Source of the DNA: Methanocaldococcus lauensis | GTDB lineage: Archaea > AGJL01 > Methanococci > Methanococcales > Methanocaldococcaceae | Assembly (NCBI RefSeq): GCF_902827225.1 | Contig: NZ_LR792632.1 | Location: forward strand, 1,321,030 to 1,385,029 | Direction of reading: 5' to 3' | Length of the DNA stretch: 64,000 bases | Notes under the pieces: model-generated | Seen by the model: the letters and a program-made list of their open reading frames with translations, nothing else | Databases searched by the model: none | Told to the model about the DNA's origin: nothing | Translations under genes and position numbers: made by a program | In this document: in pieces, positions 1-27,210 of the stretch | How the letters are laid out: each line of letters opens with the position of its first letter | Numbering within the stretch: position 1 is the stretch's first letter

Positions 1-366
1 TTTGAATCTTCAATAAATAATTTGAGAAAAGAAAATGAAAACATAAGAGTAGAGCTTGATAAAATTAATGAAAGCTTACAAGATATAATGGCTCTTTATG
101 AAGTAGTATCTAATCAAATTAATCCATTTATCGGTGTTTCAAAGATAACAGCTACAAGTTTAGAAAAACTTGAAAGATTAGAATCTGAGTATAAACGATT
201 AAAGAAAACGATTGATGAATTAACTAATGATTTGGTAATATTAGGTTCCTTATATTTAACTCAACTAAATATAGATCTAGATAAAATTATTGAAGAGGTA
301 TTAGAAGAAGATATTATAAAGGCAATGTCCGGAGAGGATACCCATGATACAAAAAACAATGAATGA
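1..366 (+). CDS. flaC: Archaellum accessory protein FlaC, 5' truncated by window edge
   Basis: The reading frame is open from base 1 and has no start of its own, so the true start lies upstream; only about 121 C-terminal residues are visible. The fragment is highly charged and predicted helical/coiled coil (many Lys, Glu, Leu heptad-like repeats), as in methanococcal FlaC. FlaC, D and E are cytosolic partners that join the archaellum motor in Euryarchaeota. It overlaps the next gene (flaD) by 23 bases, the usual arrangement of a translationally coupled fla operon. The assignment rests mainly on position before flaD-E-F-G-H-I-J. Confidence 0.85.
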   Translation, partial: FESSINNLRKENENIRVELDKINESLQDIMALYEVVSNQINPFIGVSKITATSLEKLERLESEYKRLKKTIDELTNDLVILGSLYLTQLNIDLDKIIEEVLEEDIIKAMSGEDTHDTKNNE

Positions 367-1330
367 AACATCTCATTCATCAAACCCTGTATTTTCTGAC
401 GAGGATTTTCTCACAGAAGACGAAATTGAAGAATATTTAAACAATCTTAAACCACCATTACCTTCCTTTGTTGTAATATTAATAAAGAATAATCTAAGGG
501 GAAAAAGAGTTACTAAAAGGCAGTTAGAAAAAATCGTTGAAAGAATTAGAGAGGTCCTATCTAAAGGAAGAGTAGATAAATCTGAAGAGCTAAATAAAAA
601 ACTTCAAACTCTTGAGCAGAAACTTGATACAATAATGAAACTCACCACCCGAGTATTTTCAACTAAAGTTTCAGAAAAAATTGAAAACACTTCTAAAAAG
701 TCTGATTTAATTACGATTGAAAAACCTAAAGAGAATTGGGAAATTAAAGAAGAGATTGATAAAATTGAAGTAATAAAAAAACCTGTAAAAAAAGAAATTA
801 CAGAAAAAATTGACGAAACTAAAAAAGAAATATTAGAAAGTAAAAAAGAGGATATTAAAAAAGTTGAGGGGATATTTAAAGAAGATATTAAAGAAAAAGA
901 GCAAAAACCATTAGAAATTCCTGAAGAGGGTGTTTATATGCAAGCCACTGTTGAAAAAGAAAAATATTATAGATTAAATGATATTCCTGAAGATGCTGTC
1001 TCAACAACATTAGTTTTTAAATGGTTAGAATTTTTAATAAGCAAGTGTGGAATTACTAATTTACCAGATATTTTAGATTATTATAATGAGATTGGATGGA
1101 TATCTGATAAAGTTATATTAAAACTTTTGAGATTTGCTAAAAATATGAAAATAATAATAAATACAGAAAATATAAAACCTAAAGATAAATTATCGCCAAG
1201 TGATCATATTATGTCACTATTATACATTGAAAAGCTTGCTGGTAGACCTGTAAATTCAGAAGTCCTTGAAATGTTAGAAATAGAAATTAGAAGAATAAAA
1301 AAATGGGCTGAGGGATTACAATTAATATAA
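344..1330 (+). CDS. flaD: Archaellum accessory protein FlaD
   Basis: This 328-residue protein belongs to the FlaD/FlaE family of cytosolic archaellum motor components. Residues about 1-85 are a small globular part, about 85-195 are a Lys/Glu-rich coiled coil, and about 205-328 are a conserved domain (LKWLEFL, DHIMSLLYIEKLAG-like motifs) that is paralogous to the whole of FlaE downstream. The ATG at 344 follows GGAGAGG. An in-frame ATG at 938, preceded by GAGGGTG, could give a second product of 130 residues covering only the conserved domain; M. voltae FlaD is known to be made in two sizes. The gene is inside the fla operon. Confidence 0.93.
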   Translation: MIQKTMNETSHSSNPVFSDEDFLTEDEIEEYLNNLKPPLPSFVVILIKNNLRGKRVTKRQLEKIVERIREVLSKGRVDKSEELNKKLQTLEQKLDTIMKLTTRVFSTKVSEKIENTSKKSDLITIEKPKENWEIKEEIDKIEVIKKPVKKEITEKIDETKKEILESKKEDIKKVEGIFKEDIKEKEQKPLEIPEEGVYMQATVEKEKYYRLNDIPEDAVSTTLVFKWLEFLISKCGITNLPDILDYYNEIGWISDKVILKLLRFAKNMKIIINTENIKPKDKLSPSDHIMSLLYIEKLAGRPVNSEVLEMLEIEIRRIKKWAEGLQLI

Positions 1331-1348
1331 ATAATGAGGTGAAATATT

Positions 1349-1750
1349 ATGGATTCAATGGCTTCAATATTAGAAGTACACAAACCTACTAAGTTAGAAG
1401 ATATTCCAGAAGAGGATTCTATTGCAATTATTTTGGCATTAAAGTGGTTAGAATACTTATGTGAAAGAATAGGTACTGAAAATGTTCCTGATGTGTTAGA
1501 ATTCTACTATATGATAGGATGGTTAGGAGAAAAAGCATTATCTAAATTGTTAAAATTTTTAAAGGGAATTAAAGTTGATGAAGAAAATGTAATTGACAGA
1601 TCTGGAAAACTAAATATAACAGACCATATTGTATCATTGTTATTTATTGAAAGGCTAAATGGAAAACAAATATCTATAGAGTTATTGGATAAAATTGAAT
1701 GGGAACTAAGAAAAATTAAAAAGGGGGCTGAACAGTTCTATGGGATTTAG
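1349..1750 (+). CDS. flaE: Archaellum accessory protein FlaE
   Basis: A 133-residue protein that is essentially the C-terminal domain of FlaD on its own: shared segments include LKWLEYL, EFYYMIGWL and DHIVSLLFIERL. In Euryarchaeota FlaC/D/E take the place of FlaX around the FlaI-FlaH motor and link it to chemotaxis input through CheF. The ATG at 1349 is preceded by GAGGTGA. Its last 11 bases overlap the flaF start, so translation is probably coupled. The family call is firm because of both the sequence relation to flaD and the operon order. Confidence 0.93.
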   Translation: MDSMASILEVHKPTKLEDIPEEDSIAIILALKWLEYLCERIGTENVPDVLEFYYMIGWLGEKALSKLLKFLKGIKVDEENVIDRSGKLNITDHIVSLLFIERLNGKQISIELLDKIEWELRKIKKGAEQFYGI

Positions 1751-2153
1751 TTCAGTTGTAGGTACTACAATAATGATTATTGCATTGCTTATATGTGGAA
1801 TGTACCTCTATACTACAATAGATAATCATTATGAAAGGATTTATGAATCGTATAATATTTATTATTCCCATATACAAGACAAACTAAACGAGAAATTAAT
1901 AATAACAAAAGTAGTAAGTTCAGGATATCAAACAAATATAACAATCTATAATAATGGGTCTGTAGTGGTTGAACCGCAAAAATTTACAATAATTTTTGAT
2001 GGATTAGTAGTACCCAAAATAAATATATCATACTTAAATTCAAAAAAATATCTTGAGCCGTTAGATAATATTACTATTATTGTAAATTGGTACTCTCCTA
2101 AAAGAATATGCATAGTATCTGACAATGGAAAGAAGTACTTTTACTTACAATGA
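1740..2153 (+). CDS. flaF: Archaellum stator protein FlaF
   Basis: A 137-residue protein with one N-terminal membrane helix (about residues 6-27, VVGTTIMIIALLICGMYLYT) followed by a beta-sandwich-like extracytoplasmic domain. FlaF and FlaG form the pseudoperiplasmic stator that anchors the archaellum motor to the S-layer. The start overlaps the end of flaE. An 87-base gap with TTATATTT-like sequence separates it from flaG, the only sizeable gap in this operon, so an internal promoter there is possible but not shown. Confidence 0.9.
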   Translation: MGFSSVVGTTIMIIALLICGMYLYTTIDNHYERIYESYNIYYSHIQDKLNEKLIITKVVSSGYQTNITIYNNGSVVVEPQKFTIIFDGLVVPKINISYLNSKKYLEPLDNITIIVNWYSPKRICIVSDNGKKYFYLQ

Positions 2154-2240
2154 GATTAACTCATTTAAAATTATTTATAATTAAATAATTAATCGTTATA
2201 TTTAAAATTTCAAATTTATTTGAACTATAAGGTGATTTAG

Positions 2241-2696
2241 TTGGCATCTAGTGCATTATCTGAAATTATTATGTTTGTTGCAGTATTATTAATTGCTGCA
2301 TTTGTTACTGGAATCTTAACAACATCCACCTATAAAATTTCTATAGGAATTGACAAAAAAGGAGATGAACTGTCAACGAAATTATCCCAAGATTTTGAAA
2401 TTATAAATGACCCTGGTAAAATTATTAGAAATTCAGAAAGTGGAATTACATATTTGTATATTAAAAATACGGGTAAAGATCCTATACTATTTACAAATGA
2501 CTCATTTACTGTAGTTATTGATGGAAATATTGTAACTATTAATGATACAGAGCAATTAACAACTCCTGGAAGTAATGTGTTATATCCCGGAGATGTTGGA
2601 GAGATCATAGTAAATTACAATGAAACTGGTTATCATAGGATAAAAATAATATCATATACAGGAATATCAAGAATTATTAAAGGTTATATCTCTTAA
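2241..2696 (+). CDS. flaG: Archaellum stator protein FlaG
   Basis: This 151-residue protein has an N-terminal membrane helix (about residues 5-28, ALSEIIMFVAVLLIAAFVTG) and an extracellular beta domain, the architecture of FlaG, the partner of FlaF in the archaellum stator. The start is a TTG at 2241 directly after AAGGTGATTTAG, which gives correct ribosome-binding-site spacing; no ATG upstream would serve. It sits between flaF and flaH. Archaellin-like N-terminal sequence is superficially present, but the position and length favour FlaG. Confidence 0.9.
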   Translation: MASSALSEIIMFVAVLLIAAFVTGILTTSTYKISIGIDKKGDELSTKLSQDFEIINDPGKIIRNSESGITYLYIKNTGKDPILFTNDSFTVVIDGNIVTINDTEQLTTPGSNVLYPGDVGEIIVNYNETGYHRIKIISYTGISRIIKGYIS

Positions 2697-2715
2697 ATTA
2701 TTTTGCGGTGGAATT

Positions 2716-3408
2716 ATGAAACTCGCAAGAATTGATTTAAGTAGAGACGATTTAGAAAAAAGAATTGGGGGTGGTATTCCATATGGTAGTTTAATAATAA
2801 TTGAAGGAGAAGAAAGTACAGGAAAATCTGTGTTATGTCAAAGACTTGCATATGGTTTTTTACAAAATAGATGTTTAGTAACATATGTTTCTACACAACT
2901 TACAACCTTAGAATTTATAAAGCAAATGTCATCTTTAAATTACAATATTAACAAAAAATTGTTATCAGGTGCATTGTTGTATATTCCTGTTTATCCCTTG
3001 ATTGCTGATAATAAAAAAAAGGATGGTTTTTTAAAAAAAGTTATGGAAACAAGAGCTTTTTATGAAAAAGATGTCATTATATTTGATTCTCTCTCAGCAT
3101 TAATAGCAAACGATGCCAGTGAAGTAAATGTTAACGATTTAATGGCTTTTTTTAAGAGAATTACAGCTTTAAAGAAAATAATAATTTGCACAATAAATCC
3201 AAAAGAATTACCTGAATCAATTTTAACTATAATAAGAACATCATCTACAATGTTAATAAAAACTGAATTATTTTCTTTTGCTGGAAGTTTAAAAAATGTA
3301 GCTAAAATATTAAAATATAATATGGCTCCTGGACCTTATCAAAAGAATATAGTGTTTAGAGTAGAACCTAAGATAGGAATAGCTGTTGAAATAGCATCCG
3401 TTGCATAA
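2716..3408 (+). CDS. flaH: Archaellum motor RecA-like ATPase FlaH
   Basis: A 230-residue RecA/KaiC-superfamily P-loop protein. The Walker A motif is GEESTGKSVL (about residues 30-39) and the hydrophobic strand ending in Asp, VIIFDSLSAL (about 114-123), is the Walker B region. FlaH binds ATP with little or no turnover and forms a ring that regulates FlaI and assembly of the archaellum. The ATG at 2716 follows GCGGTGGA. It precedes flaI closely in the operon, as in all known fla clusters. Confidence 0.95.
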   Translation: MKLARIDLSRDDLEKRIGGGIPYGSLIIIEGEESTGKSVLCQRLAYGFLQNRCLVTYVSTQLTTLEFIKQMSSLNYNINKKLLSGALLYIPVYPLIADNKKKDGFLKKVMETRAFYEKDVIIFDSLSALIANDASEVNVNDLMAFFKRITALKKIIICTINPKELPESILTIIRTSSTMLIKTELFSFAGSLKNVAKILKYNMAPGPYQKNIVFRVEPKIGIAVEIASVA

Positions 3409-3442
3409 TAGTTATATATATTTTCAAGTTTTGGTGATAAAA

Positions 3443-5086
3443 ATGAGTGAAGCTGAGTTAAGAGAAGCCATGAACAGAAATCCACATTTACGAAAATATA
3501 TCGAAAACTTTAAGAGAATCTATATGAAAATTCCTGATTTTATGGTGTCCCTATCAAGAGAGTTAAAAGAACTAAAATATCCTAATATTATATATCCAAT
3601 TGGTGACCCTATATTTATACATATATTTGGAACTCCTGAAACTAAAACGAAATATATTGTTATTGAGCCAAAATTAGAAACTCCTGAAGAAAAATTAAAG
3701 TATAAAATGATTTTAAATAGAATCTTAGAATTAGCCCCATACGAAAAAACTCCTAAAAGTGTAGAGGAATTTGAAGAAGTTTTAGTAAGATTGTTTGATG
3801 CTTCAACAAAGGTTACAGAAAACTTTAATGAAGGAGGATTTCTTAGGAGAATTTTTAAATTTGCAGACAACAAGATAAGAATCACTAAAGAAGAAAGAGA
3901 AAAATATCTTTACATCTTAAAAAGAGATTTAATAGGTTTAGGAAACTTAGAACCTATTGCAAGAGATCCATACTTAGAGGATATTCACGTTATTGGTCCA
4001 AAAAATTGTCATGTTGTTCATAAAATTTTCGGAATGCTGCCTACCAATATAACATGGGAAGATGAAGTAGAGCTTGCTGATTATTTAAAGAATATAGGAG
4101 AACGAATGGGAAGGCCTGTATCAGATGCTCATCCAATAGTTGATGGTGCTTTACCAGACGGTTCAAGAATTAATATTGTTTACTCCACAGATGTTTCTCC
4201 AAAGGGGCCATCATTTACAATTAGGAAATTTACAGATGTTCCAATTAGTGTAACACAACTTATTAGTTGGGGAACATTTTCTACAGAAATTGCCGCATAT
4301 TTATGGTTATGTTTAGAGTATGGTATGAGTATATTTATCTGTGGAGAAACTGCATCTGGAAAAACAACAACATTAAATGCAATATTACCATTTATAAAAC
4401 CTGATTCAAAAATATTTTCATGTGAAGATACTCCAGAAGTTAAACCACCTCATCCTGTATGGCAACAGCTAATTACAAGAGAAAGAGGACCTGAAGAAAG
4501 TAGAGTTACATTGTTTGATCTGTTAAGAGCTGCATTAAGATCAAGGCCCAATTATATCATTGTTGGGGAAATTAGGAGTGTTGAAGCAGCAGTTGCATTT
4601 CAAGCTATGCAAACAGGACACCCAGTATTATCAACATTTCACGCTGCTAATGTTAGAAAGATGATACAAAGATTAAATGGAGATCCAATTAATGTTCCAC
4701 TAACATTTATGGACAACTTAAACGTTGCACTGTTCCAGTTGGCAGTTTATCAGAGAGGTAAAGTCTTGAGAAGAGTAGTTACAATTGAAGAGATTGAAGG
4801 ATACTATAAAGAGGTAGATGGTGTAATTACAAGAGCTGTATTTCAATGGGAACCTGATAAAGATAGGCACATATTTACAGGTAAAAACAATAGTTACATA
4901 TTAGAAGAAAAGATTGCCAAGGCTGCAGGTTATGAAGATCCAAGAGACATATATAATGAGTTAGAATTAAGAGCAAGGATCTTAGAGGAGATGATTGCAA
5001 GAGAAATTTTTGATTATTATCAAGTTAGAGATATTATCTGGGCATTTTACGAGAAAGGTTTAGAAGGGCTTCCATTCCCAATCTGA
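3443..5086 (+). CDS. flaI: Archaellum motor ATPase FlaI
   Basis: A type IV pilus/secretion superfamily hexameric ATPase (547 residues with this start) that powers both assembly and rotation of the archaellum. Walker A is GETASGKTTTLN (about residues 299-310), the Walker B region is YIIVGEIRSVEA, and the His box is GHPVLSTFHA. The frame is open further upstream to a start at 3401, but GGTGATAAA just before the ATG at 3443, and the family-typical MSEAELREAM start, decide for 3443. It lies between flaH and flaJ. Confidence 0.96.
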   Translation: MSEAELREAMNRNPHLRKYIENFKRIYMKIPDFMVSLSRELKELKYPNIIYPIGDPIFIHIFGTPETKTKYIVIEPKLETPEEKLKYKMILNRILELAPYEKTPKSVEEFEEVLVRLFDASTKVTENFNEGGFLRRIFKFADNKIRITKEEREKYLYILKRDLIGLGNLEPIARDPYLEDIHVIGPKNCHVVHKIFGMLPTNITWEDEVELADYLKNIGERMGRPVSDAHPIVDGALPDGSRINIVYSTDVSPKGPSFTIRKFTDVPISVTQLISWGTFSTEIAAYLWLCLEYGMSIFICGETASGKTTTLNAILPFIKPDSKIFSCEDTPEVKPPHPVWQQLITRERGPEESRVTLFDLLRAALRSRPNYIIVGEIRSVEAAVAFQAMQTGHPVLSTFHAANVRKMIQRLNGDPINVPLTFMDNLNVALFQLAVYQRGKVLRRVVTIEEIEGYYKEVDGVITRAVFQWEPDKDRHIFTGKNNSYILEEKIAKAAGYEDPRDIYNELELRARILEEMIAREIFDYYQVRDIIWAFYEKGLEGLPFPI

Positions 5087-5096
5087 GGTGGTTATT

Positions 5097-6776
5097 GTGG
5101 TATTCGATTTATTACCAAGAATTGGGCTTAAGCCCAAAGATTATTTATTAAAAATTTTACTGCCCGCTATCATTATTTCCATAGTTTTAACTATAATTGG
5201 AATTGTATTTTTTAAAGGCTTTATCTTATATTTATATTTACTTTTGCCAATTATAATACTTTCAAGTGCAATTATATATCCTTACATTGTTTTAGATTCT
5301 CAAAAAAATAAAATAAATGAAAGATTACATATTTTCATAACAAAATTTGGTACTTTATCTATAACAGACTTGAATAGAAAAGATCTATTAAAAATACTTT
5401 CAGAAGAGACAGAAGAACTTGGAGAATTAGCAAAAGAATCTAATAAACTGTATGTATTAACTGACAAGTGGGGAAGATCATTAGCAGAAGCTTGTAGATT
5501 TTTATCTCAGAGAACTCCAAGTAGTGAATTTGCAGATTTCTTAGATAGATTAGCGTATGCTTTAGATAGTGGTGAAGAGCTTAAAGAATTTTTAATAAAG
5601 GAGCAAGATATAGTTATGGATGATTATGCAGCATTCTATAAAAGATGGTTATATTCTCTTGATATGTATAAAGAACTCTATGTTAGTGCAATGACATCTG
5701 TAGCGTTTTTTTTAGCTTTCTCCATATTAGTTCCATTCTTGCTACCTTATGATTTTGTTTTTATGGCTACTATTTCCTTATTTACATTTTTTGGAATTGA
5801 GTTACTTATTCTTATTATCATAAAAAACAGCATAATATTTGACAGATTGTGGCATACTGGAGAAAAACCTACAGATACTGATAAAAAGCTTAAAAAATGG
5901 TTAATTATATCTATAATTCTCACTATAATTTTGTTATCATTTTTAATATGGACTAAATTTATAATTGGGTTATCACCATTTTGTAGAATACCCTATATGA
6001 TATTAATAGCTTTAGGATTTACACCATTAGCCATAGTAGGAATTATTACATCAAAAGAAGAAAACAAAGTTAAAAGAAAGGAATTTGTATTTCCAGATTT
6101 TTTAAGGTCTTTAGGAGATTCAGTAAGTGCTAAAGGAGGAGGAATGGTAGAATCCTTAGAGTATTTATCAAATCACGATTTTGGACCTCTTACAGAAAAC
6201 ATTAAAAGACTATATAAAAGATTAGCTTTAAATATAGACTCTAATAAATCTTGGAGATTTTTTGGCTATGAATCTTGTAGCTACTTAATACAACTATTTT
6301 CAGATATATTTTCAAGGTGTATATACTTTGGAGGAGATCCAAAAATAGCAGCCAATATAATAAGTAACAATTTTAGAAAGATTGTTCAGTTGAGAAAATC
6401 TAAGTATCAAACAGTTCAACAATTTATTGGAATAATTTATGGTCTTGGTGGTGGTTTAGCTTTAGCATTATTTGCCTCATTAGGTGTAGCTAAGATGATT
6501 AATGAAATATACTCTTCATTAAGCATACCAGAAACGGTCGTCCAAATTTTACATGTAATACCTATCCAAAGTTCAGGGCTCCTTGAATATATAATATTTG
6601 GGACACTTATAGTTTATTCTGCAATTTCAGGAATTTTGATCAAAATATTAGATGGTGGTCATAAGTATGCAGCATTGTTACACTTCGTTATTATTCTATG
6701 GATATGTGCTATAGTTGCATATGTAACAAAACTGTTAGTTTCACAGGTATTAGGAGCTTCCGTTCCGATTTACTAA
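5097..6776 (+). CDS. flaJ: Archaellum membrane platform protein FlaJ
   Basis: The polytopic platform protein of the archaellum (559 residues), related to TadC/PilC-type proteins, on which FlaI acts. Hydrophobic helices cluster at residues about 18-66, 195-245, 265-315 and at the C-terminus (about 440-555), separated by two cytoplasmic helical domains. The start is a GTG at 5097; an in-frame GTG at 5088 overlaps the GAGGTG ribosome binding site and is unlikely. It is the last gene of the plus-strand fla operon and runs towards flaK. Confidence 0.93.
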   Translation: MVFDLLPRIGLKPKDYLLKILLPAIIISIVLTIIGIVFFKGFILYLYLLLPIIILSSAIIYPYIVLDSQKNKINERLHIFITKFGTLSITDLNRKDLLKILSEETEELGELAKESNKLYVLTDKWGRSLAEACRFLSQRTPSSEFADFLDRLAYALDSGEELKEFLIKEQDIVMDDYAAFYKRWLYSLDMYKELYVSAMTSVAFFLAFSILVPFLLPYDFVFMATISLFTFFGIELLILIIIKNSIIFDRLWHTGEKPTDTDKKLKKWLIISIILTIILLSFLIWTKFIIGLSPFCRIPYMILIALGFTPLAIVGIITSKEENKVKRKEFVFPDFLRSLGDSVSAKGGGMVESLEYLSNHDFGPLTENIKRLYKRLALNIDSNKSWRFFGYESCSYLIQLFSDIFSRCIYFGGDPKIAANIISNNFRKIVQLRKSKYQTVQQFIGIIYGLGGGLALALFASLGVAKMINEIYSSLSIPETVVQILHVIPIQSSGLLEYIIFGTLIVYSAISGILIKILDGGHKYAALLHFVIILWICAIVAYVTKLLVSQVLGASVPIY

Positions 6777-6789
6777 AAATAAATAATTT

Positions 6790-7497
6790 TTATAAATTTA
6801 AAATAGAAAGAAAAATTTCTATAATTTTATCTCCTATTATTGGTGTTAGTAGATATGATAAAAAAATAGGTACAACAAATGGAATAGATGGAGTTACCCA
6901 AACTTCCTCATTTTTATCATATTTTGAAATATCATAACTCTCTTCTACGCTTGGTAATAATTTTAAATTTTCTTGATTACCCAGAACTATCCTTTCTTTT
7001 TTTATAGCATCAGAAACCTTCATTTTTTCTCCAATAAACATACATATAATTTCTTTTTTTGTTCTTGGTTTATAACCTCTAATTATATTTTTTATAAATA
7101 TAACAATTGGGATAATTATAGATAAAAATAACGCATTAATAAATACCATTATTGGAAATGAAGGAATATAAGGATTGTAATTTAAAAGTAAACCTAATGA
7201 AGAATATATTGGCATAGAATACTTAGGTATTAACGCCCCAATACCCATAAACAATTTTCCATCACCTCCTCCTGCTCCTAATAAGAACATAAAATAACCT
7301 AAAAAGAAACAAACTAAAAATCCAATAGCTGATTGACAAATAAACAGTAGATTATGTGCTATTATTGTTAAATAAATACTATATAAGAACCCAAAAATAG
7401 CCATTATTATCCAGATATAATCACTAATTTCTCTACTTTTTATATCCTGAATTGAGGCGATTAACAATCCAACAACTCCTACAATATAATTTAGCAT
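6790..7497 (-). CDS. flaK: Prearchaellin (preflagellin) peptidase FlaK
   Basis: A 235-residue GxGD aspartyl membrane protease that removes the short positively charged leader from archaellins before assembly. The first catalytic Asp lies in SIQDIKSREISDYIW (Asp18 region) and the second in the GGGDGKLF segment (GxGD motif, about residue 78). Five to six hydrophobic helices are visible. The ATG at 7497 follows GAGGGGTATA. It is convergent with flaJ, with only 13 bases between the stop codons, and is transcribed separately from the main operon. Confidence 0.95.
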   Translation of the reverse strand: MLNYIVGVVGLLIASIQDIKSREISDYIWIIMAIFGFLYSIYLTIIAHNLLFICQSAIGFLVCFFLGYFMFLLGAGGGDGKLFMGIGALIPKYSMPIYSSLGLLLNYNPYIPSFPIMVFINALFLSIIIPIVIFIKNIIRGYKPRTKKEIICMFIGEKMKVSDAIKKERIVLGNQENLKLLPSVEESYDISKYDKNEEVWVTPSIPFVVPIFLSYLLTPIIGDKIIEIFLSILNL

Positions 7498-7687
7498 TAT
7501 ACCCCTCTAATAAATTTTTATTTATTGAATTATTGTTATAATATAATTTTTATTTGTAGTATTATAATTTCGATAATTGTAGAAATTAATTTAGGATAAC
7601 TAATTTATATAATTTACATTAATAAAGATTATATAACAAAATTGTAATAAATTACTTTAATTATAATTAAAATCTTAGGGGATTAGT

Positions 7688-10252
7688 ATGAAAAAGATTA
7701 TATTAATATTTTTGTTACTATTAATATTACCTACAATATTTGCAGATGTTAAAGTTTATAAAATATGGTCTCTCTACGATACTCCAAATTCTCCTATAAT
7801 TCATATAGACATTAGTGAACAGGTTATATATTTAGGAATCGTAAATAGAGATGATTATGCCCATAATGTAATCGTCGAAGCAGATTGTAATGGACATATA
7901 TGGAAATCTGGATTGATTACTTTACCACCTAATAGTCATATAGAAAAAATCGTAGAAGTCAGAGTTCCTGTATATGATGATAAAGAACACAATGTCAATA
8001 TAAAGTTAATTGAAAATGGAAAAACTATCTCTTCTACGACAGTCAGAGTTAAATCTTATTTTCCAGTAGATGTTAAGAATGTAACTTGCGAGGATTCTTA
8101 TAAAGAAGATAATTCTGAAGTTTGTTATAGTAATTGGTTTAATGTAATTTTAAAAAGCAATCCTATTGCTCAAAGTGATTACATTGCCAAAGTCTGGATA
8201 AATTTAAAAGATGGAAATAAAATACTTTACGATGGAATAAATGACACTAAAACTGTATATATCCCATATAGAAAAGAAGTAAAAATTTCCTTTAAAGTAC
8301 CTAAAATAGTTCTTAATAAAGATAAATTTACTATTGAAACTAATGTAGAAATTATGAATGTTACACATACTATAGATGGAATTGAAGAACTATCTGAAAA
8401 AAGGAGTAATAATGTAATATTTTATGAATATAAAACTAATGTAAAATACTTTAATTTGCCAATTATTATAAAAAATGTAGAACTTTACAGAAAGATTGAT
8501 GAAAATACTTCAAATATCGTTAAAGAGTTTTACGATTCTGCAGGTATTTTAGATGATGAAATATACAAAATATTATCAGATAAATATTTACAACAAAAAA
8601 ATAATGATGTAATTCCAAGGTATTATGTTGAAGGAGATCCAATTTTATCTATTTTAAAAATTACTGTAGAAAACAAATATAACAAAGATATTTTAGCAAG
8701 ATTGTTCATAAATTATGGTAATATAATTGTAAAAAATATAAAGCTTAATAAAACCAAAGATAATATTCTATATATTCCAATATATACCACTAAAGGGACA
8801 AAAAATATAGAAGTAAAGATATATCCTATAGATGCTGATAAACTTATTTTTGAGAAAAATTATTCTGTTAATATAAATCCAATACCTGTAGCTCCTGTAA
8901 TTATTGAAAACGTTATTTTACCTAAAGATGACAATATAAATACTGATACAAATATTGGAGGAGACGTTTTAGTAGGAAAAAAATACAATATGACAATAAT
9001 ACTAAAAAATATCTATAATAAAACATTATATGGTAAAATTACTATAGATGATAATTTTCCTAAAGGTGTAGCAAATTATACTAAAACAATAAACTTTAGC
9101 ATATATCCTCATACAACTAAAAAAATAAATGTTCCAATAATATTTTATAGGGAAATTAATGGGGATTTAAAGATTACTGTTTCTGTTGATGGGGGAGCTA
9201 AGGATTCCACATCTTTGGCACACTTTTGTGCAGTGCTACCAATAGATATAATTAGAGTATATTATAATAACACTTTACTATTGGGAAAAATAAATACAAT
9301 AAACAAAAATGGAGGAATTTACATAAATAAACCTATTGCAGGCTTTAACAACACATGTGTAGTTGAACTTAGAAATAAATTAAATAAAGATATTGTGTGC
9401 GATGTTTGGGTAGAAGTTATTGATGAAAATGGAACTATTAAAGCAAAAAGTAATTGCAAAACAGTTACTTTAAAAAAATTATCTACTACTGAAATATCAT
9501 TTCCAATATTTTTTGATGAGGGATTTGAAGGATATACTATAGCGCATATTATTCCAAAATCCTTAGAAAATGTTGATATTACATATACTGAAGGTTATGG
9601 AATACATCCTGTTCCAATATCAAACTACTATGAAATTGGGAGATATTCAGCTATTGATCTCTTAGGTAATAAAGTAGCAACAGGGACACATGTAGTTACA
9701 GAAGTTATTTCTCCAGTGAATATTGAAAATATATCGTATAATGATAGTATATTGATTGCAAAAATTAGAAATGACAAGTTTCCAGTAAATTTAACAATAC
9801 AGTATTGGGCAGTTATTGAAAATAATTCAAAAATATATTATAAAAGTCCAACCTATCAGGAAGAAATCTATCCAAAATCTGAAAAGAGTTTGAAAATACC
9901 TATAGATACTAAAACTCTAAAATTTGGAAGATACAATGTAACATTATACATAAAAATTGATGACTTTGCATTATACAATAATAAAAAAGTTCCAATAATT
10001 TTACAAAAATCAGTATCTCTTACAAATAATAAAAATATACTTAACGGACATCATAATAACCTTAAAGAACAATATAATATCACATCTAAAAATAAATCAG
10101 ATATTATAAATACAAAAGGAAATTCTACTGAAATTTCAAGAAAAAATGCTATAAATAGGACTAAAAAAACCTCAGAACATAAAAACATATTAAGTAACTT
10201 TTCTGAGTTTTTAGAGGGAATAGTTTCTACAATTATTGGAATTTTTAGATAA
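7688..10252 (+). CDS. Large exported protein of unknown function beside flaK
   Basis: An 854-residue protein with a clear signal peptide (MKKIILIFLLLLILPTIFA, predicted cut after Ala) and a mildly hydrophobic C-terminal end (EGIVSTIIGIFR). The body consists of repeated beta-rich, probably Ig-like/CARDB-like segments with many N-x-S/T sequons, so it is likely surface exposed and glycosylated. The last 90 residues before the C-terminus are rich in Asn, Lys and Thr and look like a linker. A similar gene next to flaK exists in M. jannaschii as far as I recall. A role in the archaellum base, S-layer or adhesion is inference only. Confidence 0.8.
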   Translation: MKKIILIFLLLLILPTIFADVKVYKIWSLYDTPNSPIIHIDISEQVIYLGIVNRDDYAHNVIVEADCNGHIWKSGLITLPPNSHIEKIVEVRVPVYDDKEHNVNIKLIENGKTISSTTVRVKSYFPVDVKNVTCEDSYKEDNSEVCYSNWFNVILKSNPIAQSDYIAKVWINLKDGNKILYDGINDTKTVYIPYRKEVKISFKVPKIVLNKDKFTIETNVEIMNVTHTIDGIEELSEKRSNNVIFYEYKTNVKYFNLPIIIKNVELYRKIDENTSNIVKEFYDSAGILDDEIYKILSDKYLQQKNNDVIPRYYVEGDPILSILKITVENKYNKDILARLFINYGNIIVKNIKLNKTKDNILYIPIYTTKGTKNIEVKIYPIDADKLIFEKNYSVNINPIPVAPVIIENVILPKDDNINTDTNIGGDVLVGKKYNMTIILKNIYNKTLYGKITIDDNFPKGVANYTKTINFSIYPHTTKKINVPIIFYREINGDLKITVSVDGGAKDSTSLAHFCAVLPIDIIRVYYNNTLLLGKINTINKNGGIYINKPIAGFNNTCVVELRNKLNKDIVCDVWVEVIDENGTIKAKSNCKTVTLKKLSTTEISFPIFFDEGFEGYTIAHIIPKSLENVDITYTEGYGIHPVPISNYYEIGRYSAIDLLGNKVATGTHVVTEVISPVNIENISYNDSILIAKIRNDKFPVNLTIQYWAVIENNSKIYYKSPTYQEEIYPKSEKSLKIPIDTKTLKFGRYNVTLYIKIDDFALYNNKKVPIILQKSVSLTNNKNILNGHHNNLKEQYNITSKNKSDIINTKGNSTEISRKNAINRTKKTSEHKNILSNFSEFLEGIVSTIIGIFR

Positions 10253-12803: not shown

Positions 12804-13148
12804 ATGATAAACTTTAAGTGTGATACTATGCCAATATTTCAAGTTCTTGGTAAAAAGGGAACAATAGAAATATTATATAAAATTAAAGAGGGGGTTAATT
12901 CTTTTACTAACATAAAGGAAGCTATGGATAGGGATGGCTGTAGTGTTAGTACAAGAACTCTTGCTGAAAGATTAAGTGAATTAGAGAACGAAAATTTAAT
13001 ACAAAAAATCGGAAATAAATATTATCTGACTAAAAAAGGAGAAGAATCTTTAGAAATTATTGAGAATATTTTAAAATGGGAAGCCAAGTGGGAAGAAGCA
13101 AAAATCCCAAAAATTATAATTGGAATGCTTGGAGATAAAGAAAGATAA
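12804..13148 (+). CDS. HxlR-like winged-helix transcriptional regulator
   Basis: A 114-residue winged-helix protein of the HxlR/MarR-like type: PIFQVLGKKGTIEILY is helix 1, STRTLAERLSELENENLI the recognition region, and KYYLTKKGEESL the wing. A Cys in the FKCDTMP segment aligns with the conserved redox/thiol Cys that precedes the G-G-K-W motif in HxlR proteins, which supports the start at 12804; the ATG at 12828 is the alternative. It is 14 bases upstream of the MinD-like gene. The ligand and targets are unknown. Confidence 0.8.
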   Translation: MINFKCDTMPIFQVLGKKGTIEILYKIKEGVNSFTNIKEAMDRDGCSVSTRTLAERLSELENENLIQKIGNKYYLTKKGEESLEIIENILKWEAKWEEAKIPKIIIGMLGDKER

Positions 13149-13162
13149 TGGGTGAATAATGT

Positions 13163-13933
13163 ATGAAAATAGTTACATTTTCTGTTGCAAAGGGTGGTGT
13201 AGGAAAAACAATCATTACAGCAAATGTTGCAGCAGCATTAGCAATAAAAAATAAGAAAGTCTTACTTATTGATGGAGATATAGGATCAAAATCCTTATCT
13301 CATCTTTTAAATATAAAATCAGAGGTATTTTTGTTGGATGTAATAGAAAGTGGAGGTTCAATAAAAGATGCCATAGTTAAAACATCAATTGAAAATCTTG
13401 AATTATTGTCAATTGGTAAGTCACTTACTGATTACTTAAAATTTGACATAGATGTGCTAAAAAAATTTGATGAGTTAAAAGATTACGACTATATATTTAT
13501 AGATGCCCCAACAACATCAAGTGGTATTGAGACATACTTAGCGTTAGGGTTTTCTAACTACTTTGTTCCAATTTTGGATTATACTGCATTTGGTCCAAGT
13601 TTGCAGGGGGCTATAAATACTATAGTAATTGGAAAAAATTATTTAGAAAGTGAGCCAGTAGGATTTATAATAAACAAAGCTGATGAGTTGCCAGAAACAG
13701 TTGTTAACGATGTTAAGAAAATATTAGGTTTGGAGTGTATCTCTATCATTCACAAAAGTTCTGTAGTAGAACAATCCTACGCAAAAAAAGAAATTGTCTA
13801 TTTAAAACATTCAGATAAAAAATTCAACTCTGAAATTAATAAAATCGTTAATGTATTAGAAAAACTAAAAGAAGCAAAGAAAAGAAACATTCCTAAGGTT
13901 CTTGAAAAAATAAAAGAAAGCACTTTGTTATAA
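13163..13933 (+). CDS. MinD/ParA-family P-loop ATPase
   Basis: A 256-residue deviant-Walker ATPase. The N-terminal motif KGGVGKTIITANVAAAL carries the signature lysine of the MinD/ParA/Mrp superfamily; VLLIDGDIGSKSLS is switch I and DYIFIDAPTTSSG is Walker B. A C-terminal amphipathic tail (RNIPKVLEKIKESTLL) could be a membrane-targeting helix as in MinD. Archaeal MinD homologs position polar structures including archaella and chemotaxis arrays, but no partner is evident here apart from the upstream regulator. Confidence 0.88.
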   Translation: MKIVTFSVAKGGVGKTIITANVAAALAIKNKKVLLIDGDIGSKSLSHLLNIKSEVFLLDVIESGGSIKDAIVKTSIENLELLSIGKSLTDYLKFDIDVLKKFDELKDYDYIFIDAPTTSSGIETYLALGFSNYFVPILDYTAFGPSLQGAINTIVIGKNYLESEPVGFIINKADELPETVVNDVKKILGLECISIIHKSSVVEQSYAKKEIVYLKHSDKKFNSEINKIVNVLEKLKEAKKRNIPKVLEKIKESTLL

Positions 13934-14824
13934 TTAATCTTTTTTAGTTTTTTTGTTATTTTTTAATACCATAATATCTACAATATTCATTAAAATTTCT
14001 TTTTGCTCTTCTTCAGAGGGTATTTTTAAATTATACTTTTTTAGTAATTTCTCATCTACATTAAATTTACGACCTAATTTTACTTCTTCATCAATGTATT
14101 TTCTTAATAATTCTTCTTTTAATTTTGTAGCATTTTTTAAGAAACATTTACTAATTTCTAATACAAGAATTACAAATATAGCTCCCACGATTGTCATAAC
14201 TATTCTTTCTTTTATATATTCGGGAATAGATATAATGTAATCCTCTGCATTTAGATGTAAATACAGTATTCCCAAAATAGAGCCATAAAGATGATCAACC
14301 ATAACTGATGTAAATGATAATATTAAAGCTCCAATTATGGTTTTTTTAAAATCTTTGTTGAATAATAATTTGCTTATTTTATCTCTACAAATAACAACAA
14401 GAAGTAAAGCAAAAATTGTTAAAATAGGATGATAAAATGCAACTCTACCAACATTTGTTGAATAAAATATTAATAACCCCACAATGAATATTAATATAGA
14501 ATACTTCCATTTACCTTCTGATAGTGCTCCTGCTGATATTGTTGCTAATACTGGAGGTATTATTGAATATAATCCAAAATAAAACGCTTTTGGTTTTATA
14601 AAGAAATAAATTAATGTAGATACTCCTATCGCAAGAGCTCCATATATAGGACCTAACACAAGACCACATAATGCGGAAATACTTGGATATGCATTTATTT
14701 TGTGCGGAACTCCTACCATTTCAAATCTGAGAAATGGAATAAATATAAATATAAATGTAACTATGCCACTAAAAAGCAATAATAAGGTTTTTTTATCTTT
14801 TCTAATGTATTTGAATAAGTTCAT
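13934..14824 (-). CDS. Multi-pass membrane protein, ECF S-component-like
   Basis: A 296-residue membrane protein with about seven hydrophobic helices and a charged C-terminal tail. The segment SALCGLVLGPIYGALAIGVS resembles the substrate-binding components of energy-coupling-factor transporters, where G-P-x-x-G motifs recur. The start is the ATG at 14824 after GTGGTAAT; a GTG at 14839 in the same frame is less likely. It converges on the MinD-like gene with no gap. The substrate is unknown and the ECF assignment is tentative. Confidence 0.65.
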   Translation of the reverse strand: MNLFKYIRKDKKTLLLLFSGIVTFIFIFIPFLRFEMVGVPHKINAYPSISALCGLVLGPIYGALAIGVSTLIYFFIKPKAFYFGLYSIIPPVLATISAGALSEGKWKYSILIFIVGLLIFYSTNVGRVAFYHPILTIFALLLVVICRDKISKLLFNKDFKKTIIGALILSFTSVMVDHLYGSILGILYLHLNAEDYIISIPEYIKERIVMTIVGAIFVILVLEISKCFLKNATKLKEELLRKYIDEEVKLGRKFNVDEKLLKKYNLKIPSEEEQKEILMNIVDIMVLKNNKKTKKD

Positions 14825-15211
14825 ATTACCACATAACACATATTATCCATTAAACCGAATATTAAAATTCATATTAAATTATTAAAATTCATATTAAATT
14901 ATTAAAATTCATATTAAATTATTAAAATTCATATTAAATTATTAAAATTCATATTAAATTATTAAAATTCATATTAAATTATTAAAATTCATATTAAATT
15001 ATTAAAATTCATATTAAATTATTAAAATTCATATTAAATTATTAAAATTCATATTAAATTATTAAAATTCATATTAAATTATTAAAATTCATATTAAATT
15101 ATTAAAATTCATATTAAATTATTAATGAGCATTTTATTTATGATCATAATTAATATAATATAAATTTTAATATAAAAAATTAATCCAATAAAATTTCAAT
15201 AGGTGTTATAA
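14825..15211. other. Intergenic region between divergent genes, mostly tandem repeat
   Basis: This gap lies between a minus-strand membrane-protein gene and a plus-strand CBS-domain gene, so it must hold both promoters. Two thirds of it is the perfect 20 bp tandem repeat at 14861-15120. The remaining 90 bases before the CBS gene are AT-rich with TATA-like words (AATATAATATAAATTTTAATATAAAA) and the AGGTGTT ribosome binding site. No RNA gene is apparent. Confidence 0.8.
14861..15120. repeat. 13 perfect tandem copies of a 20-bp unit
   Basis: Thirteen identical copies of ATTAAAATTCATATTAAATT in direct tandem without a single mismatch, 260 bases in total. The 20-base period is close to two helical turns, so identical bases recur on nearly the same DNA face. 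The unit is pure AT apart from one C. Perfect identity means recent expansion or active homogenisation. It could be a protein-binding iteron array, a bent-DNA element, or simply a slippage-prone satellite. Confidence 0.97.
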
Positions 15212-15637
15212 ATGGTTGATGCCCTAAAAGATATAAAAGTAAAGGATATAATGACAAAAAATGTTATAACAGCAAAAAAAGATGAAGGTGTTATAGAGGC
15301 ATTTGAAAAAATGTTAAAATATAAAATTAGCTCCTTGCCTGTAGTTAATGACGAAAATAAAGTTATAGGAATCGTTACAACAACTGACATTGGATACAAT
15401 TTAATAAGGGATAGATACACATTAGAAACTAAAATTGAGGATGTAATGACTAAAGATGTGGTTACCATAGATAAAAATGCAAGTATATTAGAGGCTATTA
15501 AAAAAATGGACATTACTGGAAATACAGAAATTATTAATCAACTACCCGTTGTTGATGATAATAACAAGTTAGTTGGAATAATTTCAGATGGAGACATAAT
15601 TAGGGCAATATCAAGATATATTATTAGAGATAAATAA
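15212..15637 (+). CDS. Tandem CBS-domain protein
   Basis: A 141-residue protein made only of two CBS motifs (about residues 8-60 and 77-135), each with the V-x-D-I-M-T-K entry and G-I-V/I-T/S-x-x-D-I exit pattern. Such Bateman modules bind adenine nucleotides or SAM and regulate partner proteins. The ATG follows AGGTGTTATAA. It is 16 bases upstream of the methanogenesis marker 11 gene and may be co-transcribed with it. Confidence 0.9.
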
Positions 15638-25253: not shown

Positions 25254-25780
25254 GTCTAAAATCAGACCCCTAAGGGGATGGAAAATTGCAGCAATGAGCT
25301 CCTTTTCAGATAATATTGATTCGTCTAAGTCTAAAATCAGACCCCTAAGGGGATGGAAAATATCTAAGTCCTTAACGTGCCATGTTCTTGTTTTTTTCCA
25401 GTCTAAAATCAGACCCCTAAGGGGATGGAAAATCTTTTCACCTCTAAAAATCGCTATTATCATATTTTACGTCTAAAATCAGACCCCTAAGGGGATGGAA
25501 AAAACATTATCAATATTATTTTTAGCTTGATAAATCAATTGCGTCTAAAATCAGACCCCTAAGGGGATGGAAAAAATTATAGATTTATTAAGAAGAATTT
25601 AAAGGTGATAGTCTAAAATCAGACCCCTAAGGGGATGGAAATATTAAGAAAATCTGTGTTAATGCCGTTGGGTCATTAGGTCTAAAATCAGACCCCTAAG
25701 GGGATGGAAATGTATATTCTCTTTCGGAAATCTTTGTTATCAAATCCTATGAGTCTAAAATCAGACCCCTAAGGGGGAAA
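25254..25780 (+). CRISPR. CRISPR array, first block (7 intact repeats and a degenerate eighth)
   Basis: The 31-base repeat starts GTCTAAAATCAGACCCCTAA and ends GGGGATGGAAA. Intact copies start at 25254, 25329, 25401, 25471, 25543, 25611 and 25680; spacers are 37-44 bases and all different. The eighth copy (25753) has lost the ATG of GGATGGAAA and runs into a trailer-like sequence. The repeat has an internal palindrome CCCCTAAGGGG and the ATGGAAA end typical of archaeal crRNA 5' handles; it resembles the M. jannaschii repeat. No cas gene is in the window. Confidence 0.98.
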
Positions 25781-25860
25781 ATGATTTTAATTTAAGAGGC
25801 ATTGCTTCCTAAGGGAAGCAATGCATCGGGGGTATACCAATAGGGGGTATCCCCCTATGG
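25778..25860 (+). repeat. Internal copy of CRISPR trailer element (two hairpins)
   Basis: After the degenerate repeat comes a 26-base word (25778-25803) identical to 26754-26779, then hairpin 1 with an 11-bp stem (25799-25809 / 25814-25824) and hairpin 2 with an 8-bp stem ATAGGGGG / CCCCCTAT (25840-25847 / 25851-25858). It abuts the next CRISPR repeat directly at 25861, with no leader between. The same order of parts is found at the end of the second block. Confidence 0.9.
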
Positions 25861-26757
25861 GTTTAAAATCAGACCCCTAAGGGGATGGAAATTCATACAC
25901 CATCTTATCTCCTTTATATATTGCTACATATACATTTGTCTAAAATCAGACCCCTAAGGGGATGGAAATATTTTTCAGCTTTTGCTAATTGCATAAGCAT
26001 ATTTATTAAAGTCTAAAATCAGACCCCTAAGGGGATGGAAATTTAACAGCACTTAAAACATCCTGAGCATATCCCATATTATCGTCTAAAATCAGACCCC
26101 TAAGGGGATGGAAATCCTATAATATCCTTCAAATATTCCTTATATATCGGCGGGTCTAAAATCAGACCCCTAAGGGGATGGAAATTTTTAATTTTTCCCA
26201 ATACATGAACAAAGCATGTTTTGTCTAAAATCAGACCCCTAAGGGGATGGAAATATATGAACATAGATTTTTTTAAATAAACTAACTATTTCGTTGGTCT
26301 AAAATCAGACCCCTAAGGGGATGGAAATGAGAATTGTGTTCATATTAATGAAGTTAAAGTCTATATCTTAGTCTAAAATCAGACCCCTAAGGGGATGGAA
26401 ATTTAATTGTAATGCCACATCTTCAAGTTTTCTCTTAATCTCGTCTAAAATCAGACCCCTAAGGGGATGGAAATGCTGTCGTAAATCTCGTCTGCATCTA
26501 CTTTATCGTGAATGTCTAAAATCAGACCCCTAAGGGGATGGAAATACGCATAAAGGAAAGATGGAAGTTGTAGAGGGAACTTGTCGTCTAAAATCAGACC
26601 CCTAAGGGGATGGAAAGGTTTGTGAGTGGCAGATTGCCGAATTCTATACTTTTATTGTCTAAAATCAGACCCCTAAGGGGATGGAAACTTTCTATAATTG
26701 TCATCTATTAAAAATAACTCTACATCTGAGTTTAAAATCAGACCTCTAAGGGGAAAA
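25861..26757 (+). CRISPR. CRISPR array, second block (12 intact repeats and a degenerate last one)
   Basis: Same repeat as the first block, starts at 25861 (variant GTTT), 25938, 26011, 26084, 26154, 26223, 26297, 26371, 26443, 26514, 26586, 26657, and a degenerate terminal copy at 26730 (GTTT start, CTCTAAGGGG then AAAATGA). Spacers are 38-46 bases. Together with the first block the locus has 21 repeats and 19 spacers. The first and last repeats of this block share the GTTT start, unlike all others. Confidence 0.98.
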
Positions 26758-26840: not shown

Positions 26841-27210
26841 GATGGGAATATTTAAATTTTTAATTTTATTTCAGTATCATAAAAATTCATAGATTTCTAT
26901 ATTCACATATATTTTAAAAGTAATAACGACTCTCGGTAAATTCTAAAATCTTTATTATAAAATAATAAAAATATCAAAAAATTATTATAATAATTCTAAA
27001 TTGTGGTAGTTACACTGTTTATTTATAGAATTTTAATATATAATAAGAAAAATTTAATTTTTTTATGATTTATTATCATCTTTCCTAAAAAATTCCAAGA
27101 TTTGGTATTTATTATTATGAATAAATTTTAAAAATGTGTATGCATAAAGAAAAGTAAATTAATATAATATAGTTTTTCCATACTAATTTAAAATAATATT
27201 TTGTGAAACT
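26841..27210. other. AT-rich intergenic region before topA
   Basis: About 370 bases without a gene. It is almost pure AT with a few TATA-like words (for example TTAATATAATATAGTTTTT near 27158, which may be the topA promoter) and a lone GC patch AACGACTCTCGG at about 26927. I see no RNA gene or repeat in it. Confidence 0.7.

Follow-up and report, generated by a model that had tools for sequence, protein, structure and literature searches.

A perfect 20-bp minisatellite adjoining a quasi-palindrome between divergent genes of Methanocaldococcus lauensis

The intergenic region separating a membrane protein gene from a divergent two-CBS-domain protein gene in Methanocaldococcus lauensis (genome G000; 1,537,427 bases, 2 contigs) holds a perfect head-to-tail array of a 20-bp unit, TATTAAAATTCATATTAAAT, that runs into one arm of a 33-bp quasi-palindrome. 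We judge it probable that the array is a non-coding, strain-specific minisatellite that arose by recent hairpin-provoked slippage, in which one arm of the palindrome was amplified. The window, by which we mean the whole 64,000-nucleotide stretch that was analysed, corresponds to positions 1321030-1385029 of contig 1; feature coordinates (Table 1) count from its first base.

Table 1. Features of the intergenic region and of its two flanking genes, in window coordinates
Feature	Position	Strand	Description
Membrane protein gene	13934..14824	-	296 aa; ATG 14822-14824; the array is its upstream region
Block unalignable to SG1	14855..15128	.	Array with 5 bp of left flank and 3 bp of right flank
20-bp-unit array	14860..15125	.	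13.3 perfect head-to-tail copies of TATTAAAATTCATATTAAAT (TRF)
Quasi-palindrome, left arm	15100..15132	+	Last array unit, partial next copy, TGAGCAT
Quasi-palindrome, right arm	15140..15172	+	28/33 positions complementary to the left arm; CBS-gene side
Two-CBS-domain protein gene	15212..15637	+	141 aa; ATG from 15212

TRF describes the array with a period of 20, 13.3 copies, 100% matches and 0 indels (score 532), and exact copies of the 20-mer number 13 (14861-15120), in agreement with a preliminary description of this DNA that had reported a perfect 13 x 20-bp satellite. Allowing up to 3 mismatches, the window contains 14 matches to the unit, against a mean of 0.76 and a maximum of 3 in 100 dinucleotide shuffles. 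The unit has a single C among its 20 bases (95% AT). The array takes up 266 bp (69%) of the 387 bp between the two start codons, beginning 35 bp from the membrane gene ATG, and the preliminary description was thus right to place it across most of a divergent promoter region; its remark that the period equals about two DNA turns holds only approximately, the wedge model giving a twist of 693 rather than 720 degrees per unit (assumed wedge values). With 13.3 identical 20-nt units, the array qualifies as a satellite/minisatellite as PMC6749651 defines it (four or more regular units of 10-200 nt). Identity as a CRISPR array was ruled out: the units abut without spacers, and Rfam matches nothing in the window except 12 CRISPR repeats (CRISPR-DR39, at gathering score; 25612-26545).

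No other exact tandem array was found in 464 kb (30%) of G000, comprising the window and 20 stretches of 20 kb (period 6-79, repeated run of at least 1.5 periods and at least 20 bp); in 400-kb samples of three relatives, surveyed at periods 6-120, G005 and G001 had 0 and G006 had 1, of period 70 and CRISPR-like by eye. The preliminary description had proposed a check for the same 20-mer elsewhere in the genome, and across the whole of G000 (up to 2 mismatches) this returned a single inverted near-copy, adjoining the array. At the same stringency the unit was matched in 6 of the 14 genus genomes, the five besides G000 having one match each, all with 2 mismatches, and single matches turned up about as often with a reversed control pattern. 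Joined units, sought with a 30-base pattern (up to 3 mismatches), are present in G000 alone among 36 genomes of the order, the 35 others having none; among the CBS loci fetched (30 of 35 matches), an exact array lies upstream only in G000. Confinement of the unit to one locus in the genome rules out a transposed satellite or MITE, and a viral origin was dismissed too, the 20-mer occurring once each in 6 viral contigs, never in tandem, as expected of chance. Separately, two loci of another genus of the order (L155 1-89 and L159 3018-3076, in G025 and G032) carry a (GATATA)n-type 6-bp microsatellite ~1.1 kb downstream of the CBS gene.

A scan of genome contigs recovered one relative, SG1 (Methanocaldococcus sp., LR792634.1; G005), which is of the same species and 97-99% identical in the array flanks; G009, of the same genus by listing, encodes a membrane protein that is 99% identical. 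The array is absent from both and other sequence stands at the site: the intergenic gap is 228 bp in each, and the 187-bp allele tested is identical between them. The alignment of G000 to SG1 ends at 14854 and restarts at 15129, setting 274 bp in G000 opposite 119 bp in SG1, and on the CBS side the flank is strongly diverged at 15129-15172 and the same from ~15173 to the CBS gene. Since no relative has the array, the comparison points to the G000 allele being derived relative to that of SG1. A recent copy-number change, as the preliminary description had suggested, fits the perfect units, the single locus and the absence of the array from the two closest genomes. Within window positions 1-25000, G000 and G005 differ at 326 of 22,971 coding bases and 30 of 1,647 other non-coding bases, and an array as old as the strain split would be free of substitutions with a probability of 0.15 or 0.09; the lack of substitutions is compatible with a recent array, and the dating argument by itself is weak. 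At the left edge of the array, SG1 has a seed-like match that is only suggestive, since 2.3% of shuffles and 1.5% of AT-rich controls (1000 each) did as well. Divergence between G000 and G005 is uneven over positions 1-25000 (3-9 substitutions per kb at 1-8000, up to 44 per kb past 15000), perhaps marking a recombination border, and the alignment to 70 kb of G005 stops at 26971, slightly past the CRISPR repeats.

The quasi-palindrome joined to the array is a new observation, absent from the preliminary description. Its 33-bp stem (28/33 pairs, 7-nt loop) scores 18; the highest score was 15 among 500 right-flank shuffles and 10 among 73 AT-rich windows taken from the G000 sample, so that a stem as good arose in 0 of the 500 and 0 of the 73. 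Compared with the arm's complement, the SG1 allele matches at no more than 18/33 positions and the best of 3000 AT-rich controls at 23/33. Like the array, the palindrome is absent from the sister genomes. Folded as DNA, it is only moderately better than its shuffles (z -1.65, 18/200 as good), and the array alone is worse than its own (z +4.0, 200/200 as good), hence the array itself forms no special hairpin. A genus search with 15100-15180 returned one full copy, and the remaining matches were partial and weak, on which grounds origin of the palindrome from a dispersed element was rejected. The 13 units are all identical whereas the two palindrome arms differ at 5/33 positions, which suggests that the palindrome predates the array expansion.

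The palindrome also bears on the reality of the array. Perfect arrays of 266 bp are difficult for short reads, and the copy number rests on the assembly and may be an assembly estimate. Even so, it seems improbable that the array is an artefact, either inflated or with a true copy number different from that given: the right arm both complements the unit and is missing from SG1, so unit-related sequence is really present, and the array lies in the interior of a 1.53-Mb contig.

At the array site, SG1 and G009 instead hold a decayed MITE-like palindromic element with inverted repeats, its left half within the 119 bp, which matches a 13-copy nhmmer profile of the family at E 7e-4 (over the targets searched). 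The Methanocaldococcus family in question thus resembles the present locus in having a decayed copy at the same intergenic site; it differs in that the G000 array and quasi-palindrome are single-locus and give no nhmmer match to the family profile at E 10. The family itself consists of palindromes of ~85 bp with ends ACTTTCGCAG...CTGCGAAAGT (L185, L186, L187, L188, L036, L038 and L040, from G001, G004, G006 and G011), and copies with the searched ends number 20 in G001, 19 in G004, 9 in G006 and 1 in G011, with 0 in the other 10 of the 14 genomes. Its central stem varies with pairing mostly kept (by eye; GATGCC/GGCATC, GACATC/GATGTC, GACACC/GGTGTC). Rfam gave no match at gathering score in L185, L186, L037 or L160, and an imperfect family copy is present in G000 (L037 1490-1599, C1 near 697091, also in L059; nhmmer E 2.8e-13).

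The mechanism that we propose would start from the quasi-palindrome, as a hairpin at 15100-15172 in the divergent intergenic region. Replication would pause at this hairpin and the nascent strand would misalign; the outer 20 bp of the left arm would then be amplified head to tail ~13-fold, recently, and unequal exchange would afterwards keep the units identical. What is observed is the array, the palindrome, the lack of both in the sister genomes and the different 119 bp found there; from these we infer slippage as the cause, the palindrome first and the array second, a derived G000 allele and no selected function. The order of events can only be deduced, since no allele with the palindrome and one unit was found among the genomes compared, and an imperfect palindrome could have been made later from the array by template switch. 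In a study of Pyrococcus abyssi polymerases, both PolB and PolD underwent slippage in vitro where a hairpin had short direct repeats on either side (PMC4134008); the slippage described there yields deletion, not expansion, which counts against the mechanism here. Because it stands immediately 5' of the membrane gene, the array may incidentally affect the flanking promoters.

The membrane gene is present in 13 of the 14 genus genomes, with the CBS gene next to it in divergent orientation in 9 of the 13 (8 by script, and L012 by eye in agreement with the coordinates) and not as its divergent neighbour in the other 4 (L015, L016, L019, L020). For the membrane gene the ORF list offers a longer GTG start at 14839, and searches of Pfam and NCBIfam place its product in no family at E 0.001 (the best Pfam match has E 0.21). 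The CBS gene has a Shine-Dalgarno-like AGGTG immediately 5' and outside the array; indeed, the Shine-Dalgarno-like motifs of both genes lie beyond the array limits.

To score promoters we learned a BRE/TATA-like matrix from 732 upstream regions, the best run being seeded from an assumed consensus and the Shine-Dalgarno region excluded, since an unrestricted search recovered the Shine-Dalgarno motif. The matrix is weak: real and shuffled medians are 5.7 and 4.6 bits, the 10th-90th percentile ranges overlap (3.7-7.8 vs 2.6-6.4), and its best sites do not cluster at any particular distance from the ATG. By this weak model the array units score 3.2-3.5 bits, under the 10th percentile of the maxima in real upstream regions (3.7), so multiplication of promoters by the units is not supported; such a prediction can only lower the likelihood of a promoter role, not remove it. 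In the SG1 allele the same weak matrix predicts a site of 7.3 bits at position -112 relative to the membrane gene, against at most 3.5 in the array and 4.7 at -346, beyond the array, in G000 (real median 5.7). Replacement of the better site would suit a copy-number switch, in which the number of units shifts or weakens the divergent promoters and varies expression of the membrane and CBS genes, by phase variation or tuning; so would the share of the divergent gap filled by the array, its closeness to the membrane ATG, and a TTTATAAATATATTTC-like box seen by eye 5' of the membrane gene in four relatives (L012, L014, L017, L018). We nevertheless regard such a switch as unlikely. The three near-identical genomes show no other unit numbers, only presence or absence, and the matrix has the weaknesses given above. 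Moreover, genomes with systematic repeat-based phase variation carry multiple such arrays, unlike here, where the samples of G000, G005, G001 and G006 contain no comparable one. A young contingency locus, at which the hairpin keeps generating unit-number variants that retune the divergent membrane and CBS genes, we consider decidedly improbable.

The phased bends envisaged in the preliminary description were not borne out: with assumed wedge values throughout, the predicted curvature of the unit falls at the 82nd-86th percentile when compared with shuffled versions of itself. The net bend of the 266-bp array is 17 degrees against a mean of 70 in dinucleotide shuffles, the vectors largely cancelling, and ranks at the 40th percentile among arrays built from 13 copies of a shuffled unit. 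Among windows of 120 bp, the first 120 bp of the array do rank in the top 1.3% by predicted curvature (again by assumed wedge values), and the array is the least stable predicted 266-bp duplex of the window (assumed stacking values), a property expected from its AT composition. As the array is also not conserved, we consider it very improbable that it is maintained as a phased intrinsic bend or DNA-unwinding element serving chromatin or promoter architecture. The low duplex stability and the direct repetition of the 20-mers would equally suit a binding array (iterons, origin-associated or centromere-like), perhaps serving the winged-helix and ParA/MinD-like genes at 12804-13933 (the former ~1.7 kb and the latter ~0.9 kb from the array). 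An array that is absent from G005 and G009, and whose joined units occur in only 1/36 genomes of the order, can hardly be an essential site, and no second array was found in the genome; we give this reading next to no credence, and with the site not conserved, the active constraint, iteron and origin element put forward in the preliminary description find no backing.

The locus is a clean case of a Methanocaldococcus minisatellite right beside a hairpin, with near-identical genomes that lack the array. That combination makes the hairpin-provoked slippage by archaeal polymerases that we favour testable in vivo, and if unit number were also to alter expression, the locus would be an archaeal contingency locus.

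Bacterial VNTR or minisatellite loci consist of identical head-to-tail units that differ between strains. The G000 array is alike in its identical head-to-tail units and in the strain difference, but differs in showing presence or absence only, with other sequence at the site where the array is lacking. In Haemophilus hif, for example, phase variation is caused by tandem repeats of a 2-bp unit that lie between divergent promoters; our array shares the position between divergent genes, whereas its unit is 20 bp and, by the weak matrix, has no good promoter-like site. Methanococcus voltae belongs to the same order as Methanocaldococcus. Its AT-rich short satellites are ascribed to probable local DNA duplication errors (Subirana and Messeguer 2019, PMC6749651), and the G000 array resembles these and other archaeal AT-rich satellites (short unit, 90-100% AT, probable local duplication errors). 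Among the literature matches listed, judged by title, no such locus appears apart from PMC6749651. M. voltae has 48 listed satellites where G000 has one array in the 464 kb examined, and no microsatellite origin is visible by eye in the G000 array, which is further set apart from the M. voltae satellites by being perfect over 13 units and joined to a quasi-palindrome (PMC6749651).
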